Shown: positions 2,813 to 32,437 of the stretch, piece by piece
Numbering within the stretch: position 1 is the stretch's first letter
Layout: the number at the start of each line of letters is the position of its first letter
Origin: Bacteroidota bacterium
Lineage (GTDB): Bacteria; Bacteroidota; Bacteroidia; Sphingobacteriales; Sphingobacteriaceae
Assembly: GCA_013286325.1 (NCBI GenBank)
Contig: JABDFZ010000015.1
Coordinates: forward strand, 1 to 39,863
Direction of reading: 5' to 3'
DNA length: 39,863 nt
Notes under the pieces: model-generated
Database searches by the model: none
Told to the model about the DNA's origin: nothing
The model's input: the letters and a program-made list of their open reading frames with translations, nothing else
Made by a program: the position numbers and the translations under genes

Positions 2813-4042
2813 GTGAGAAATTTATTTATGAGATTAGTGTACAAGCCAGCTATAGTATTTACCGCCCTACTGTTTATTTTAACCTCCTGTTCCTCAAAAC
2901 AACAAAACAATAAAGAAGTTAAGCTTCCTGGCCCCAACGCCCCCTTCGATACCAAAGCTTTATTAGCTTATAATCCTAAAAATGCGGACAAAAAGATCGA
3001 CGAGTTTATGAAGCAATTGCATAAAACCCGTGGCTTTAATGGTAATGTACTGGTTGCAAAACATGGCAAAATAATATACGAGAATGCTATTGGCTGGGCC
3101 GATTACCTGCATCGCGACAGCCTGAAAATAAACTCGCGGTTCGAGCTGGCTTCGGTTACCAAAACCATTACATCCACGGCAATTTTAATGTTGCTTGAAC
3201 AAGGCAAGCTAAGCCTTAACGATGATGTAAAAAAATATTTCCCCGATTTCCCATACGATGGCGTTACCATCCGCTTATTGCTTACCCATCGTTCCGGAAT
3301 GATGAATTATGTGTATTTTACTGATGACTTGTACCGGGCACAGCATCTCAATCAAAAAAAGGGTATTACCAATGCCGAAGAAATGGCATTGATAGCTAAA
3401 TACAAGCCAAACCCCTTTAATAAGCCCGATAAAAGGTTTTTATACAACAACTCTAACTTTATGGTGCTTGGCTCTATTATAGAAAAAGTAACAGGGCAAT
3501 CGTATGCCGATTTTGTGATGACGCATATCTTCAAACCATCAGGTATGGAGCATACAGCTGTTTATTCAAAGGCCGTTTACGATAAGATCCCGGTTGATGT
3601 AGTTGGGCACGACAGGGGTCAATGGCGGTATTCAGTCGCTCAGAACTTCCTGGATGGTCCGGTTGGTGATAAAGGGGTTTACAGCACAGTTGGTGACCTT
3701 TATCTTTTCGACAGAGCATTACGCAGCGGCAGGCTCTTAAAACAAGCCACAATGGATTCGGCTTATGTTCCCCGCAACCCTATGCTGCATGGGCATTTTA
3801 GCTACGGATACGGATGGCGCATTTTTGAATCACCAGGTAAACAGGTAATTTATCATACCGGCTGGTGGCACGGTTTCAGGCATATCTATCTGCGCGATAT
3901 AAAAGACGACATTACCGTTGTACTCTTAACAAACCTTTCAAACGGCAGCTTGTTAAAACTTGATGATTTGTTTAAAATTGTCGGGATGCCGGTAGTACGC
4001 AAAAGTGCCTATAATGGCAATGGCGATACGAGTGATGATTGA
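2813..4042 (+). CDS. Class C beta-lactamase-family serine hydrolase (lipoprotein)
   Basis: Penicillin-binding-protein/AmpC-fold serine hydrolase of 409 residues. The three active-site elements are visible: S114-V-T-K117 (SxxK), Y211-N-N213 (YxN) and H348-T-G (the KTG equivalent). The N-terminus has a hydrophobic segment ending in LTSC, a lipobox with the lipidated Cys at residue 26, so it is probably an anchored lipoprotein. The open frame starts with GTG at 2813; the ATG at 2828 five codons later gives an equally good signal peptide and may be the true start. Family members include D-aminopeptidases, esterases and peptidoglycan DD-peptidases; the sequence alone does not choose among these, and true beta-lactamase activity is not implied. 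It is divergent from the TPR protein gene, with a 95-base spacer. Confidence 0.9.
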   Translation: MRNLFMRLVYKPAIVFTALLFILTSCSSKQQNNKEVKLPGPNAPFDTKALLAYNPKNADKKIDEFMKQLHKTRGFNGNVLVAKHGKIIYENAIGWADYLHRDSLKINSRFELASVTKTITSTAILMLLEQGKLSLNDDVKKYFPDFPYDGVTIRLLLTHRSGMMNYVYFTDDLYRAQHLNQKKGITNAEEMALIAKYKPNPFNKPDKRFLYNNSNFMVLGSIIEKVTGQSYADFVMTHIFKPSGMEHTAVYSKAVYDKIPVDVVGHDRGQWRYSVAQNFLDGPVGDKGVYSTVGDLYLFDRALRSGRLLKQATMDSAYVPRNPMLHGHFSYGYGWRIFESPGKQVIYHTGWWHGFRHIYLRDIKDDITVVLLTNLSNGSLLKLDDLFKIVGMPVVRKSAYNGNGDTSDD

Positions 4043-4048
4043 TTAAAT

Positions 4049-4135
4049 ATTGTTGAAGGTTGTACTGTTTGAATGTTGAAACGTTAACTTTAATTTATCA
4101 AAACCAACATTACAACTTTTCAACCTTACAACATT
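4049..4135. repeat. Inverted-arm repeat with about 8-base period (GTTGnnnn family)
   Basis: Left arm 4049-4091 repeats GTTG about every eight bases; right arm 4104-4135 carries the complementary CAAC at the same spacing. Reading the right arm on the minus strand gives a sequence matching the left arm with two one-base gaps. The pair can form an imperfect hairpin in the spacer between the serine hydrolase gene and ybaB. Confidence 0.65.
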
Positions 4136-4149
4136 AAAACAACAACCCC

Positions 4150-4449: not shown

Positions 4450-4457
4450 AAAATTTA

Positions 4458-4544
4458 AATATTGAATAATGAATGCTAAACATCGAACGCCGAAGTTTAT
4501 TCTTCACTTCATCATTCAAAATCCAACATTCGGTGTTCGATATT
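4458..4544. repeat. Inverted-arm repeat with 7-base period (CGAACAC/TGAATAA family)
   Basis: Two 39-base arms (4458-4496 and 4506-4544) around a 9-base loop. Each arm is a run of degenerate heptamers beginning with YGAA; in the left arm GAA falls at intervals of 7, 14 and 7. The right arm read on the minus strand matches the left at about two thirds of positions, and many differences are T/C transitions. It lies in the spacer between ybaB and the metal-dependent hydrolase gene. It could act as an RNA hairpin or be an old insertion. Confidence 0.75.
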
Positions 4545-4578
4545 AATAAATCTATTCATTGATATAATAAATCATTCT

Positions 4579-12119: not shown

Positions 12120-12296
12120 GATTACACTGATTTTTTTGATTGCACCAATTTATGGAGTGATTTCACCGATTAACAAGCGCTCATTTTTAAAAAAGTGTGT
12201 TTCAAAAATACAATTTATGTTGGTCAATCATTATTTATAATCAACCAAAATCATAAATTCTAATCAGTGTAATCACCTTCAAAAATCGGTGAAATC
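12120..12296. repeat. Inverted arms of 9-base units (GATTACACC family) upstream of polA
   Basis: Left arm 12120-12176 is built of nine-base units starting with GATT (GATTACACT, GATTTTTTT, GATTGCACC and others, with one 3-base slip). Right arm 12262-12296 carries the complement (AATCAGTGT, GGTGAAATC). The roughly 85 bases between are AT-rich without a gene. It fills the whole polA-tag spacer, so it may carry or displace the polA promoter. A related copy lies at 25905-25966. Confidence 0.7.
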
Positions 12297-12303
12297 AAAA
12301 GAG

Positions 12304-12879
12304 TTATTTAAAACTACATTCAGGTATGTGATCATTCACCATTCCTGTAGCCTGCATGTGTGCGTAACATATGGTGGTTCCAAAAAACTTAAAGCCCCGT
12401 TTTTTCATATCCTTGCTTATCACATCTGATATGGGCGTACTTGCAGGCGTTAGTCCTGAGTGATTATTAATTGATTTGCCATCCGGCATAAAGCTATACA
12501 GGTATTTATCGAACGAACCAAACTCCTTTTGCACTTCTATAAACAGTTTGGCATTATTAATAGCTGCCATTATTTTCAGGCGATTGCGGATAATGCCTGC
12601 ATCGTTCATTAATCGCTCCACATCAGTATCTGTAAAGGCAGCTACTTTTTTGACATCAAAATCAGCGAATGCATTGCGATAGCCTTCACGGCGGCGCAAA
12701 ATAGTTATCCAGCTTAAGCCAGCCTGCGCTGATTCAAGTACCAAAAACTCAAAAAGGGTATGGTCATCATGGATCTCTTTACCCCATTCTTCGTCATGAT
12801 ATTTAATGTATAATTCGTCAGTGCCTGCCCAGCGGCAGCGCTTTAAGTCTTGAGCCTTGAGTCGAAAGTCTTGAGTCAT
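12304..12879 (-). CDS. tag: DNA-3-methyladenine glycosylase I
   Basis: Base-excision repair enzyme removing 3-methyladenine from DNA. 191 residues. The core begins with RCRWAGTDELYIKYHDEEWG, matching the start of characterised Tag proteins; the zinc ligands are in this Cys and in the C-terminal CYAHMQATGMVNDHIPEC. The first 13 residues (MTQDFRLKAQDLK) are extra and are encoded by the heptamer repeat arm at 12841-12879, which also supplies the only in-frame start codon; no ATG, GTG or TTG lies between it and the conserved core. The ATG follows the stop of the four-helix-bundle gene by one base, so the two are probably translated together. Confidence 0.95.
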   Translation of the reverse strand: MTQDFRLKAQDLKRCRWAGTDELYIKYHDEEWGKEIHDDHTLFEFLVLESAQAGLSWITILRRREGYRNAFADFDVKKVAAFTDTDVERLMNDAGIIRNRLKIMAAINNAKLFIEVQKEFGSFDKYLYSFMPDGKSINNHSGLTPASTPISDVISKDMKKRGFKFFGTTICYAHMQATGMVNDHIPECSFK

Positions 12880-12882
12880 TTT
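12841..12882. repeat. Left heptamer arm (tag side) of the 12841-13343 element
   Basis: Plus-strand heptamers in register: CTTTAAG, TCTTGAG, CCTTGAG, TCGAAAG, TCTTGAG, then TCATTTT. Read on the minus strand it is open and encodes a seven-residue periodic peptide at the start of Tag. Matches, register for register, the minus-strand reading of the arm at 13302-13343. Confidence 0.9.
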
Positions 12883-13243
12883 AATTGAATTTTTCAGGGT
12901 TATTAATCATGTATATCAGTAACCGGGTTACTTCTTCGCTTTGTTGATTTAATTCCTGATATTTCTCATTTGTAATATAATTACAAGCTAATGAAACATC
13001 AAGCCATGCTTGTGTTTCTCCATTTTCCATATCAGCATCAGTAAGTTTACTAACAAAATGATTAGGATAGCGTCGTTTCTTATATGCCTCTGCAATTGAT
13101 GCAAAAACCGATCTTGATGAACGCCTTATCTGGTCAACCAAACTATAAGTTTCTTCTTTAGGAAAGTTTTTAGTAATCGAAAATATTTCCATTGATAAAG
13201 CAAACGACTTTTTGTAAGCAATAAGATCCCGGAATGAACTCAT
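12881..13243 (-). CDS. Four-helix-bundle protein (23S rRNA IVS / S23 family)
   Basis: Protein of 120 residues matching the four-helix-bundle family first found in intervening sequences of bacterial 23S rRNA genes. Family signatures: FRDLIAYKKSF at the start, NFPKEETYSLVDQIRRSSRSV, ASIAEAYKKR (usually NIAEG), and ETQAWLDVSL in the third helix. The family forms pentameric bundles, and a relative (Avd) is the accessory protein of diversity-generating retroelements; its own biochemical role is not established. No reverse transcriptase or variable repeat is nearby. It is the only gene between the two inverted heptamer arms; its stop is one base before the tag start, and about 58 bases separate its ATG from the right arm. 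Confidence 0.92.
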   Translation of the reverse strand: MSSFRDLIAYKKSFALSMEIFSITKNFPKEETYSLVDQIRRSSRSVFASIAEAYKKRRYPNHFVSKLTDADMENGETQAWLDVSLACNYITNEKYQELNQQSEEVTRLLIYMINNPEKFN

Positions 13244-13301
13244 AATAAGTTTAAGTTTAAAATCTAAAGTCGTTATTTTTTATGAATTTAAATCTCAAAC
13301 T

Positions 13302-13343
13302 TTTGACTTAAGACTTTCAACTCAGGACTTAGGGCTTAAATAC
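13302..13343. repeat. Right heptamer arm (AhpD-like side) of the 12841-13343 element
   Basis: Plus-strand heptamers TTTGACT, TAAGACT, TTCAACT, CAGGACT, TAGGGCT and TAAATAC. It is inverted relative to 12841-12882. The last codons and the TGA stop of the AhpD-like gene (13322-13343) are made from this arm. Confidence 0.88.
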
Positions 13344-13675
13344 AGTTCATCCCAATATTCAACGGCTCTTCGGTAATGTGGAATCACTATCGAACCACCA
13401 ACCAGATTAGCAATCATAAACACCTCGTTCATTTCATCATGGTTTACGCCTGCTTCGTGGCATTTGCCTAAATGGTATTTTATACAATCGTCACAACGCA
13501 AAACCATCGATGCTACCAGGCCCAGCATTTCTTTGGTCTTTACATCTAAAGCCCCATCAGCATAAGTGGTAGTATCCAAAGCAAAAAACCGTTTGATATT
13601 AGTATTGGCCGACTCCATTATCCTGTCGTTCATTTTTGTGCGATAGATTTCAAAATCCTCTATAAGTTTTCCCAT
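13322..13675 (-). CDS. Carboxymuconolactone decarboxylase / AhpD-like protein
   Basis: Protein of 117 residues of the CMD/AhpD family. The active-site motif C61-D-D-C64 followed by H68 (CDDCIKYHLGKCHEAG) is the redox-active pair of AhpD-like alkylhydroperoxidases, so peroxide-linked disulfide chemistry is more likely than lactone decarboxylation. The rest shows the family pattern LDVKTKEMLGLVASMVLRC and ANLVGGSIVIPHYRRAVEYW. The final residues LSPKS and the stop are encoded by the heptamer repeat arm, so the native C-terminus may have been replaced. It precedes the four-helix-bundle gene and tag on the same strand and may share their transcript. Confidence 0.9.
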   Translation of the reverse strand: MGKLIEDFEIYRTKMNDRIMESANTNIKRFFALDTTTYADGALDVKTKEMLGLVASMVLRCDDCIKYHLGKCHEAGVNHDEMNEVFMIANLVGGSIVIPHYRRAVEYWDELYLSPKS

Positions 13676-13796
13676 GGTTTGTAAATTTGCGAGTTAGTGA
13701 TTTTTGTATTTTGAAACTAAAAAGTAAATGTGATTATTTAAGTGCAAGTTACAATCAAATTAAATTCATTTTTGTAATTTTCCTTTTTCAAAATAA

Positions 13797-13827
13797 ATCC
13801 GAAATCGAACATCCGAACTCCGAAACC
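13797..13827. repeat. Single arm of GAA-rich short-period repeat
   Basis: GAA recurs at 13801, 13807, 13815 and 13822 in the context CCGAAMY, like the YGAA heptamers of the 4458-4544 repeat. No opposite arm was seen. It abuts the start of the VOC gene at 13836, so it forms that gene's leader. Confidence 0.5.
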
Positions 13828-13835
13828 AAAATCTC

Positions 13836-29785: not shown

Positions 29786-29839
29786 TTAGATTTTTATCAG
29801 ACATATAACTTATTGCTTTTTCCGTTGTATATTATTGGC

Positions 29840-32437
29840 ATGATTACAAAGGGGCAGCAAGTCATCAGGGATTGGTACGAGCGCAAGCAGTGGGAGCAAT
29901 TCGCGTTTCAGCGTGAGATGGAGAGTGCCTATTTGCAGGGTTTCTCTGGTTTGCTGAATGCCCCTACCGGTAGCGGTAAAACATTTGCGCTGTTCCTTCC
30001 TTTTCTGGCCGGTTTTATAAATAAATACCCCGATGCCTATACAAGTCAGACCAACAACGGCTTACTAATGCTATGGATCACCCCATTGCGTGCACTAACT
30101 AACGATATCAGGAAAGCTATGCAGGAGGTTTGTGACGAAATCGGTCTGCCTTGGCGGATAATGACCCGTACGGGAGATACCTCAGCAGCAGAAAAACAGG
30201 CCCTGAAAAAGAAACTACCCGAAGTTTTACTCACCACTCCCGAAAGCCTGCACCTGATGCTTGCCCAAAAAGAATATCCCAAACTATTCAAAAGCCTTCA
30301 GGTGGTTGTAATTGATGAATGGCACGAGTTGCTGGGCAGCAAACGTGGCGTACAGGTAGAGTTGGGCTTGAGTAAGTTAAAAGCCTTAAGTCGTGAGTCC
30401 GAAGGCTTAAGTAAGGACCCCAAATTAGACTCAAGACTTCAGACTCAGGACTCGAGACTCAAAATATGGGGTATCAGCGCAACCATCGGCAATTTGGAAC
30501 AGGCGGCCGAAGTGCTTTTGGGTAATGATTTTCCACCGGACAAGATCAAAATGGTGCGGGCTAACCTGGATAAAAAGCTGCTGATCAAATCTATCATTCC
30601 CGAAAATATTGAGAACTACTCGTGGGCGGGGCATATCGGCTTAAAACTATTACCACAAGTGATGGAGATTGTAGCGCTGAGCAAAACCACGTTGATATTT
30701 ACCAACACCCGTTCGCAATCCGAAATCTGGTATCATGCCATTTTAGATAATTACCCGGAGTATGCAGGCATAATGGCTATGCACCACGGCTCGCTGGACA
30801 ATGAGCTACGCAACTGGGTTGAACAGGCACTGCATGCCGAGGCTTTAAAAGTGGTGGTATGCACTTCGAGCCTGGACCTGGGGGTTGATTTTCGCCCGGT
30901 TGATACCGTAATACAGGTTGGCAGCCCTAAAGGGGTTGCCAGGTTTATGCAGCGGGCCGGTCGCAGCGGGCATGCGCCGGGTGCGATTTCAAGGGCTTAT
31001 TTTGTACCTACACACTCTCTCGAATTGCTGGAAGGTGCGGCATTAAAGCAGGGCATTAAACAAGACATATTTGAAAGCCGCGATCCTTTGCTGCTTACCA
31101 TGGATGTGTTGATCCAGTATATGGTAACGCTTGCGGTTTCGGAAGGTTTCAGGGCCGATGAATTGTTTAAAGAAGTAAAAGGCACCTATGCTTTTGCCGA
31201 TATTACACGCAATGAGTTTAACCAGTTGCTTGACTTTATTACTACTGGGGGCAAAACGCTTGCACAGTACGATGAATTTTTAAAGGTCGAAATTGAAAAC
31301 GGATTATTTAAAGTAAATAACCGCAGGGTAGCCATGCGCCATAGGCTGAGCATAGGTACTATCACCAGCGAATTAAGCATCCGTGTTAAATGGTTGAGCG
31401 GCGGCAGTTTGGGCACTATTGAAGAGTCATTTATTTCGAGATTAAAGCCGGGCAATACCTTTTGGTTTGCAGGGCGCAGCCTGGAGTTTGTACGAATAAA
31501 AGAGATGTCGGCCTACGTAAAAAAGTCTAACGCAAAAAAGGGAATGATCCCCAGTTGGGCAGGCGGGCGCATGCCTTTGTCATCGCAGCTATCGGCAGTT
31601 TTCAGGGATAAGCTGGATGAAGTAGCACATGGAATTGAAAAGGACGAAGAAGTAATTGCCCTAAAACCGTTGTTCGATCTGCAATCCCAGTTGTCACATT
31701 TGCCGCAGAGCAATGAGTTTTTAATCGAATCGTTTAAATCACGCGAAGGGCATCATCTTTTGTTTTATCCTTTTGAGGGGAGATTAGTGCATGAAGGAAT
31801 GGCTTCTTTATTTGCTTACCGCATCAGCAAAATAAAACCGGCAAGTTTTTCTATCGCCATGAATGATTACGGATTTGAATTGCTGGCCGATGAAGACATA
31901 CCTATTGAGCAGGCGTTGGAAGATGCTTCATTTTTTTCGATAGATAACCTTTTAGAGGATATACAACATAGCTTAAATGCAAATGAAATGGCCCGCAGGC
32001 GCTTCAGGGACATTGCCCATATTGGGGGGTTAATATTTACTGGTTACCCCGGTCAGCAGATAAAAAACAAACACCTGCAGGCATCAACATCTCTGTTATT
32101 TGAAGTATTCAGTGAATATGAACCTGATAATTTGCTGGTGAGGCAGGCTTATAACGAAGCGCTAGCTTTTCAGTTGGAAGAGTTCAGGCTGAGAATGGCT
32201 TTACAGCGTATAATTAAACAAACCATTATATTAAAAACAATCGACCGACCAACACCTTTTGCTTTCCCGATAATGGTTGACAGCCTTGGCCGCGAACGTT
32301 TAACCACTGAAACACTGGAAGAACGCATAGCCAAAATGGCTCGTCAATATGGAGCAGATGAGGTTTGGGAAAAGTCGGAAAATATGAATGCCGGAAAACC
32401 CCGAAAACCCGGAATTACCAGGAGAAAAGGATTTTAA
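29840..32437 (+). CDS. Lhr-like DEXH helicase (ligase-associated DNA damage response type)
   Basis: Superfamily 2 DNA helicase of 865 residues from ATG 29840; the open frame extends to TTG 29813, but MITKGQQVIRDWY fits the family start better. Walker A APTGSGKT at 41-48, motif II DEWH at 159-162, motif III SATIG just after 210, and motif VI QRAGRSGH in the second RecA domain. The C-terminal part is the large Lhr-type domain. In many Bacteroidota this helicase is encoded with a ligase, an exonuclease and the PdeM nuclease; none is adjacent here. Residues about 182-207 (ending LDSRLQTQDSRL) are foreign, encoded by the inverted heptamer repeat 30384-30466, and lie between motifs II and III. The frame stays open, so the helicase may be functional. 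Confidence 0.93.
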   Translation: MITKGQQVIRDWYERKQWEQFAFQREMESAYLQGFSGLLNAPTGSGKTFALFLPFLAGFINKYPDAYTSQTNNGLLMLWITPLRALTNDIRKAMQEVCDEIGLPWRIMTRTGDTSAAEKQALKKKLPEVLLTTPESLHLMLAQKEYPKLFKSLQVVVIDEWHELLGSKRGVQVELGLSKLKALSRESEGLSKDPKLDSRLQTQDSRLKIWGISATIGNLEQAAEVLLGNDFPPDKIKMVRANLDKKLLIKSIIPENIENYSWAGHIGLKLLPQVMEIVALSKTTLIFTNTRSQSEIWYHAILDNYPEYAGIMAMHHGSLDNELRNWVEQALHAEALKVVVCTSSLDLGVDFRPVDTVIQVGSPKGVARFMQRAGRSGHAPGAISRAYFVPTHSLELLEGAALKQGIKQDIFESRDPLLLTMDVLIQYMVTLAVSEGFRADELFKEVKGTYAFADITRNEFNQLLDFITTGGKTLAQYDEFLKVEIENGLFKVNNRRVAMRHRLSIGTITSELSIRVKWLSGGSLGTIEESFISRLKPGNTFWFAGRSLEFVRIKEMSAYVKKSNAKKGMIPSWAGGRMPLSSQLSAVFRDKLDEVAHGIEKDEEVIALKPLFDLQSQLSHLPQSNEFLIESFKSREGHHLLFYPFEGRLVHEGMASLFAYRISKIKPASFSIAMNDYGFELLADEDIPIEQALEDASFFSIDNLLEDIQHSLNANEMARRRFRDIAHIGGLIFTGYPGQQIKNKHLQASTSLLFEVFSEYEPDNLLVRQAYNEALAFQLEEFRLRMALQRIIKQTIILKTIDRPTPFAFPIMVDSLGRERLTTETLEERIAKMARQYGADEVWEKSENMNAGKPRKPGITRRKGF
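30384..30466. repeat. Empty inverted heptamer element inside the helicase gene
   Basis: Left arm heptamers CCTTAAG, TCGTGAG, TCCGAAG and GCTTAAG (30384-30411), a short centre, then right arm TTAGACT, CAAGACT, TCAGACT, CAGGACT and CGAGACT (30425-30459). The arms are inverted and match those at 12841 and 13302 in register. Twelve heptamers make 84 bases, a multiple of three, so the helicase frame is kept. Confidence 0.9.

Follow-up and report, generated by a model that had tools for sequence, protein, structure and literature searches.

The two heptamer arms and the four-helix-bundle gene at positions 12842-13340 of the window, the whole 39,863-nt stretch of DNA analysed here, probably make up one compact element, close relatives of which occur at no fewer than two sites in the genus. 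The protein is predicted to bind the repeat units of the arms and likely helps to copy the element, a reading to which we give a probability of roughly 0.6. Overall, sequence comparisons point to a real arm-plus-gene element that is mobile on evolutionary time and of a widespread design. Coordinates are given in Table 1.

Table 1. Arms, genes and gene-less inverted pairs in the window.
Feature	Positions	Strand	Remarks
Left arm	12842-12878	.	about 5 degenerate heptamers, AGTCNNN reading inward; doubles as code for the N-terminus of the Tag ORF
Right arm	13304-13340	.	inverted copy; doubles as code for the C-terminal end of the AhpD-like protein
Four-helix-bundle gene, PF05635/TIGR02436, 120 aa	12881-13243	minus	profile matches
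5' leader between right arm and gene	13244-13303	minus	partly retained in the gene-less derivative of G093
Tag (DNA-3-methyladenine glycosylase) ORF	12304-12879		ATG at 12879; first codons are the left arm
AhpD-like ORF	13322-13675		stop at 13322; last codons are the right arm
Gene-less miniature, AGTC motif	30382-30459 (arms 30382-30412, 30429-30459)	.	score 17; in frame inside a TIGR04121 helicase gene
Gene-less miniature	4039-4142 (arms 4039-4078, 4105-4142)	.	period 8, score 18; by eye resembles the arms of locus L004 in the same genome
Weak gene-less pair	4455-4567 (arms 4455-4494, 4529-4567)	.	period 7, score 15; by eye resembles the arms of locus L007

Read along the strand of the element gene, the AhpD-like gene precedes and Tag follows, and the arms overlap both neighbouring ORFs. 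The inverted heptamer runs that the initial annotation had placed around a single gene, at 12841-12882 and 13302-13343, are real. The arms are 37 nt each and 81% complementary, with 425 nt between them, and form the longest inverted pair in 12500-13700. The shared register claimed for them was recovered in the arm alignment, where the odd unit TCGAAAG on the left faces TTGAAAG on the right (minus strand) in a single register. In the comparison of 117 loci described below, arms were called at an inverted-arm score of at least 16, with periods of 5-10 tried; the window locus scores 23. Tandem Repeats Finder reports the left array at 12846-12877 (period 7, 4.6 copies), and the right array is absent from its output at score 30. 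The gene matches PF05635 (110.2 bits, cut-off 33.8, E 7.2e-32) and TIGR02436 (99.4 bits, cut-off 24), in agreement with its assignment to the 23S rRNA intervening-sequence (IVS) protein family. It is the sole gene between the arms, leaving no Y1 transposase gene there, and a domain search found no enzyme domain of known kind encoded in the element. Rfam at gathering score gave 0 matches in the window and 19 other loci, which places the window element outside rRNA. Together with the Tag and AhpD-like flanks, the family match and the inverted arms support the non-rRNA relative of an IVS that had been suggested.

Two other repeats lie close to the element. A further degenerate heptamer run (AAATCCG) at 13795-13833, in the gap that separates the AhpD-like gene from the following one, has no partner arm at the threshold used. 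Between Tag and a DNA polymerase I-like ORF, an inverted pair of TGATTACACTGATT type at 12134-12172 and 12261-12300 reaches a score of 24 with a weak period of 9 and, unlike the other arms, is not G-rich.

Among 120 genomes of the genus, 18 carry members of the window clade, 19 copies in total, with 78-100% protein identity and AGTCNNN arms. Sixteen of these window-type copies (identity at least 78%) lie at the Tag junction and three at a second site between NeuB-like and sterol-desaturase-like genes (names read from the translation). The second-site carriers are G104, G105 and G005, which holds copies at both sites, the second-site copy with two stop codons and the Tag copy intact. With 16 of 19 copies at the Tag junction, inheritance of the window-type element was mostly vertical. 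Among 30 second-site loci read, of 78 genomes with a match, three contain the element and 11 a hairpin-free junction of about 25 nt or less. Such empty junctions measure 9 nt in G022 and G048 and about 20 nt, stop codon included, in G100 and G008. Gene-less AGTC pairs occupy the site in G064 and G069. G093 carries a gene-less copy that retains part of the window element's leader (alignment score 25, maximum of 500 shuffles 18) and is apparently an internal deletion derivative. At the remaining loci there are palindromes of other types, AGTC remnants or different sequence. The second site varies among genomes by presence and absence at the scale of the element, with copies at different sites and orthologous empty sites as expected of a mobile element. 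Because two sites are used, and because empty junctions, gene-less pairs and a deletion derivative exist at the second, the element is most probably mobile on genus time-scales and a non-rRNA relative of the rRNA IVSs. The interpretation of the initial annotation, a gene-carrying mobile element, is thus partly supported, by close relatives with the same arms at a second site and by the empty junctions found there.

At the Tag junction, 70 loci were read from 116 genomes with a match, and the gene is present at 11 of them. Sorting the 52 loci with a linked AhpD-like gene by pattern gave nine with the gene and AGTC arms, ten with an AGTTGGC-type array or hairpin and no gene, five with an AGTC remnant, and 28 with none of these or another insert. 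The proposed comparison of AhpD-Tag junctions thus yielded gene-less arrays, AGTC remnants and junctions with neither, but gain and loss could not be dated by an AhpD tree of the 52 loci, which has one well-supported branch and labels no more clustered than shuffles. Target-site duplications were sought, but the arms merge into the flanks and no boundary can be fixed. No copies look recent, the top pair within one genome being 82% identical among 105 armed loci, so movement is rare or past. REP-like palindromes (GTCATTGCGAGG...) were seen at the same junctions in other species (Tag loci L131, L153, L160 and L174; second-site loci L469, L471 and L489).

The gene might instead not be mobile at all, but inherited with its arms as a regulatory stem in its own mRNA, serving autoregulation or RNase III processing. 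The 16 of 19 copies at one locus would fit, as would the predicted fold of the 513-nt transcript, which is strong (z = -6.6) with the arms paired. The IVS of Coxiella burnetii is described as cut by RNase III (PMC4990558), and purifying selection on the gene would likewise suit an inherited function. The median dN/dS is 0.05 at the Tag junction (14 orthologues, the window gene not among them; of 91 pairs, 16 could be used, and dS was close to saturation), which suggests that the gene is under purifying selection. A purely regulatory stem is nevertheless hard to reconcile with the empty, gene-less and deleted forms at the second site or with gene-less copies elsewhere. Exact pairing of the arms also appears weakly kept, since arms within one genome match barely better than arms between genomes at the Tag junction (20.75 versus 19.7; 84 of 2000 permutations). 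The repeat pattern rather than a perfect stem seems to be maintained. We consider such an immobile gene unlikely.

The repeat motif follows the protein clade. Among pairs at different sites, with no shared flank, protein identity correlates with arm similarity (Mantel r 0.49, 0 of 999 permutations; species phylogeny uncorrected). The mean arm score is 20.7 at 80-90% protein identity (22 pairs) and 5.7 at 30-40%. Clusters that span several sites have related motifs, often of one period, e.g. GTTCATGG, GGTTAAA or AGTAGC. The sister clade of the window clade (61-71% identity) has AGTTTGC/AGTTGGC arms in all 12 loci fetched, of 22 listed. Sequence comparison thus shows that arm motif and protein clade change together. 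The same motif accompanies the same protein clade at different sites and relatives have short empty junctions, and for these reasons the arms are regarded as part of the element. Purifying selection and the match between protein clade and repeat motif favour an active role of the protein in the element over a role as cargo.

Copies that end in arms of this kind but lack the gene exist, as is typical of MITEs and other non-autonomous elements, although their motif matching is only partly specific. We detected 13 periodic inverted pairs in 400 kb of the window's genome (G000) and 30 in 400 kb of G104, versus 0 in shuffled sequence (120 kb from each set). A few of the 30 pairs overlap, and two, with loops of 459 and 664 nt, may hold a gene. 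Loop medians are 23 nt in G000 and 47.5 nt in G104, with a G-rich left arm in 11/13 and 25/30 pairs, respectively. Compared with the library of gene-flanking arms, 19 of the 30 miniatures of G104 reach a score of 15 (shuffled arms 1/30, reversed arms 12/30), as do five of the 13 of G000 (shuffled 0/13, reversed 2/13). The motif assignment is only partly specific because reversed arms also match, and the resemblance of miniatures to arms is suggestive rather than exact.

Motif counts also track the gene. Genomes with a window-type gene have a median of 58 (AGTCNNN)x4 matches (n=18), versus 7 without (n=102; MWU p 1.2e-6; species phylogeny uncorrected), and one match or fewer occurs in 0/18 versus 29/102 genomes. 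AGTDGCx3 is present in 7/13 genomes with the matching gene versus 18/107 without, and AGTTKGCx3 in 11/22 versus 19/98, again with species phylogeny uncorrected in both comparisons. Mean AGTTKGCx3 counts are nearly equal (1.6 with the gene, 1.3 without) because of long perfect arrays. In G016, G056 and G071, AGTCATT forms long perfect arrays, which are apparently another kind of heptamer repeat.

The gene could also be passive cargo that hitch-hikes, perhaps serving the host, on hairpin arrays spread by host or unrelated enzymes. Gene-less arrays far exceed gene-bearing copies in number, and some genomes are array-rich with no matching gene, with many (AGTCNNN)x4 arrays in G111 (217), G070 (116) and G118 (96) despite no window-type gene. 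Arrays may outlive the gene, as in G111, where no window-type protein match accompanies the 217 matches. A passenger would not explain why the repeat motif tracks the protein clade at different sites, nor why motif presence tracks gene presence for three motifs, and we regard mere hitch-hiking as improbable.

Arms might further be the target of insertion rather than part of the element, with the gene inserting into loops of unrelated repeat hairpins that were already in place, much as rRNA IVSs sit in rRNA helices. Both the Tag junction and a loop of the helicase gene host different hairpin families at one place in different species, and the trnL P6b region of Nostoc provides a comparable swap (PMC4476775). 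For the helicase loop, orthologues of window positions 29813-32437 were anchored at 28 of 30 loci, followed by 20 more. In these relatives the content of the loop varies: AGTC, AGTTGGC or different repeats, arms of mixed type, a DUF559-like insert, or nothing at all. The same arms accompany the same protein clade at different sites, however, and the second site is hairpin-free in several relatives. Both points disfavour the target explanation, which we consider quite improbable, and a weaker form, a preference for existing hairpins, may apply.

Two observations concern the helicase loop itself. In L428 and L433, the left arm is AGTCNNN and the right arm of GACTATGGACCATCGACT type, as if a single arm had been replaced. 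Seven genus genomes (L445-L451) have an in-frame insert of about 400 nt with a DUF559-like ORF between CCCTCTCC and GGGGAGGG arms, assigned to PF04480 by Pfam on one of the seven. The insert is perhaps a second, unrelated gene-in-hairpin element at the same site.

Avd is the accessory protein of diversity-generating retroelements (DGRs) and a relative of the PF05635-type protein. Element RNA could be copied back by a resident reverse transcriptase, with the protein acting like Avd. The window protein scores just above the cut-off of the bAvd model (42.8 versus 40 bits) as a member of a homologous family, but its 33 bits against the DGR Avd model (DivGenRetAVD) fall far under the cut-off of 80, and no DGR parts were seen here. 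All 41 genomes of our set have PF05635 genes, yet the reverse transcriptase domain PF00078 was matched in only 20. The window's genome (61% complete) and 20 of its 40 relatives have no match, and the 21 genomes lacking one include G013 and G019, which are 99-100% complete. With matches in 20 of 41 genomes only, the element seems able to do without a resident reverse transcriptase, and we reject this route as very unlikely.

The window element is, by sequence, one case of a general arm-plus-gene design. The genome set comprised the window's own genome, 24 others of the genus and 16 of the class, and PF05635 was found in all 41, with 232 matches in total. We examined 117 of these loci from 35 genomes, i.e. 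the seven of the own genome and the best-scoring listed ones. Six of the seven genes in the window's genome are enclosed by an inverted pair, whose repeat of 7-8 nt differs from gene to gene, and the seventh (L005) has a weaker pair of score 20. Arms were called at 105 of 117 PF05635 loci versus two of 30 loci of the HIT family in the same genome set. By origin, 79/82 loci within the genus and 26/35 outside have arms, and nine of the 12 loci without arms at this threshold are among the 35 outside. Matches in direct orientation occur at 15/117 PF05635 and 6/30 HIT loci. All 60 dinucleotide shuffles were beaten at 103/117 versus 2/30 loci, and mean arm scores are 22.6 for PF05635, 11.4 for HIT and 10.4 for dinucleotide-shuffled flanks. 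In-frame stops interrupt 10 of the 117 genes. Other arm pairs with and without a gene, which the initial annotation proposed to search for, were thus found in both forms. It had also held that arms and gene order conserved at one locus across the genus, with no arms beside other family members, would refute mobility; conservation at one locus holds in part, but arms are also present beside other members of the family elsewhere. The long perfect arrays of some genomes, AGTCATT for example, could evoke chance or slippage of simple repeats beside a gene, but the HIT control, the excess of inverted (105) over direct (15) matches and the fixed polarity rule this out with negligible remaining likelihood. 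Ordinary terminators were rejected because the arms bracket the gene.

Arms share a common anatomy. The best period among the 105 armed loci is 7 in 83, 8 in 13, 6 in five and 9 in four. Pooled identity is 0.475 at lag 7 and 0.313 at lag 8, with 0.26-0.29 at the remaining lags. Upstream arms are G-rich reading inward, with more G than C in 103 of 105, equality in two and the opposite in none. Median arm length is 28, 34, 41 and 48.5 nt at periods 6, 7, 8 and 9, so that an arm has 4.7-5.4 units whatever the period (periods 6 and 9 rest on five and four loci); for the tandem stretch the median is 5.3 units. Two homologues with solved structures, 2rld and 2gsc, contain five chains apiece. The latter is XCC0516 of X. 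campestris, and the X. campestris protein is reported to be a homopentamer built of four-helix bundles (PMC4990558). We infer that one repeat unit would be read per subunit of the homopentamer.

The main reading could then work as follows. A homopentamer would bind five units per arm, one to each subunit, the substrate being DNA or RNA in single-stranded or hairpin form. Copying of the element might be performed by host replication or repair enzymes, with the pentamer assisting, and the protein could act in trans on gene-less miniatures. As the arms can fold on themselves, insertions would be tolerated, whether they fall between genes or in a hairpin already present. RNase III may trim the arms when they are transcribed, by analogy with rRNA IVSs.

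Several known systems share parts of this design. REP/RAYT systems combine a single gene with many matching gene-less palindromes, and RAYT is a Y1 transposase. The window element resembles them in its one gene and many matching gene-less palindromes, but its protein is a four-helix bundle for which no catalytic site is known, and its arms are tandem heptamers that vary among clades. MITEs are short, non-autonomous inverted-repeat copies. Short gene-less inverted-repeat copies, with one apparent internal deletion (G093), are found here too, but there is no transposase, no target duplication is established and the arm sequence is not constant. In the 23S rRNA IVS of C. burnetii, an S23p ORF lies inside terminal inverted repeats and the whole was called a selfish element, with GACAGAT heptamers in tandem ahead of the ORF, at the site of RNase III cutting (PMC4990558). 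A PF05635-family ORF within inverted repeats and tandem heptamers are common to both (PMC4990558). The window element differs in lying between Tag and AhpD-like genes instead of in a 23S rRNA helix, and window-type elements have clade-specific repeats and gene-less copies. Their gene is apparently under purifying selection, whereas that of the C. burnetii IVS is described as decaying (PMC4990558).

Heptamer arrays have been described elsewhere. Those of Xanthomonas (GGGAATC) and Nostoc (GGGGA(T/C)T) reportedly show, in general, no association with mobile elements, and X. campestris has 70 convergent inverted pairs near stop and start codons (PMC4692102). They are similar to the arms in forming arrays and inverted pairs of the same polarity near stop and start codons (PMC4692102). 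No link to PF05635 was found in passages of that article, whose main text has 0 occurrences of S23 and xcc0516 (PMC4692102). In the Nostoc trnL intron, degenerate heptamers form the P6b stem, with two motif classes of which one repeatedly replaced the other, and their origin was stated as not known (PMC4476775). Motif classes swapped at one site in a degenerate-heptamer stem recall the arms, but the P6b repeats lie inside a group I intron and hold no gene (PMC4476775). TAACTGA arrays of Beggiatoaceae and others are described without a PF05635 gene in passages of PMC4679880. No published link of heptamer arms to PF05635 genes appeared in the titles and abstract openings searched, with preprints and subscription papers outside the scope.

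A wider and more tentative possibility is that such elements are found bacteria-wide as minimal mobile elements that use no transposase, nuclease or reverse transcriptase. A pentamer ring would read five-unit arms, each protein lineage would have its own repeat code, and gene-less offspring might be the source of the degenerate heptamers in Xanthomonas, Nostoc and others. The rRNA IVSs could then be the special case that landed in rRNA. An element such as that of the window would provide a function and a home for a large family of proteins familiar chiefly from the intervening sequences of rRNA, and would connect this family with heptamer repeats whose source is described as not known. The system would be an unusually small self-spreading one in which protein and repeat code change together. 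If the match between five units and a pentamer holds, the recognition code would be directly testable on many natural protein-motif pairs.

The design extends beyond the genus. Named genomes were scanned by two peptide patterns, and the best 80 of the matches listed were taken. Arms were found at 32/50 loci of Bacteroidota and 24/30 of others (by record title, with two Ignavibacteria under others), the latter including Planctomycetales, SAR324, Cloacimonadota, Anaerolineae, Terriglobia, Clostridia and Proteobacteria. Among these best 80 listed matches, the direct-orientation control gave 7/50 and 1/30, and all 60 shuffles were beaten at 33/50 and 22/30 loci, respectively. The period is 7 in 44 and G exceeds C in 53 of the 56 armed loci among them. 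Phage records gave no match to the single protein tried as query. Twenty-three plasmid records matched, 21 of them cyanobacterial by name, and 11 of 17 plasmid loci read have arms, all 11 G-rich. On cyanobacterial plasmids, four-helix-bundle genes with heptamer arms were seen between CRISPR-cas genes, namely cas6/cas4 (L318, L324) and cas10/cmr3 (L321), or between metabolic genes, namely those for ribonucleotide reductase subunits (L320).
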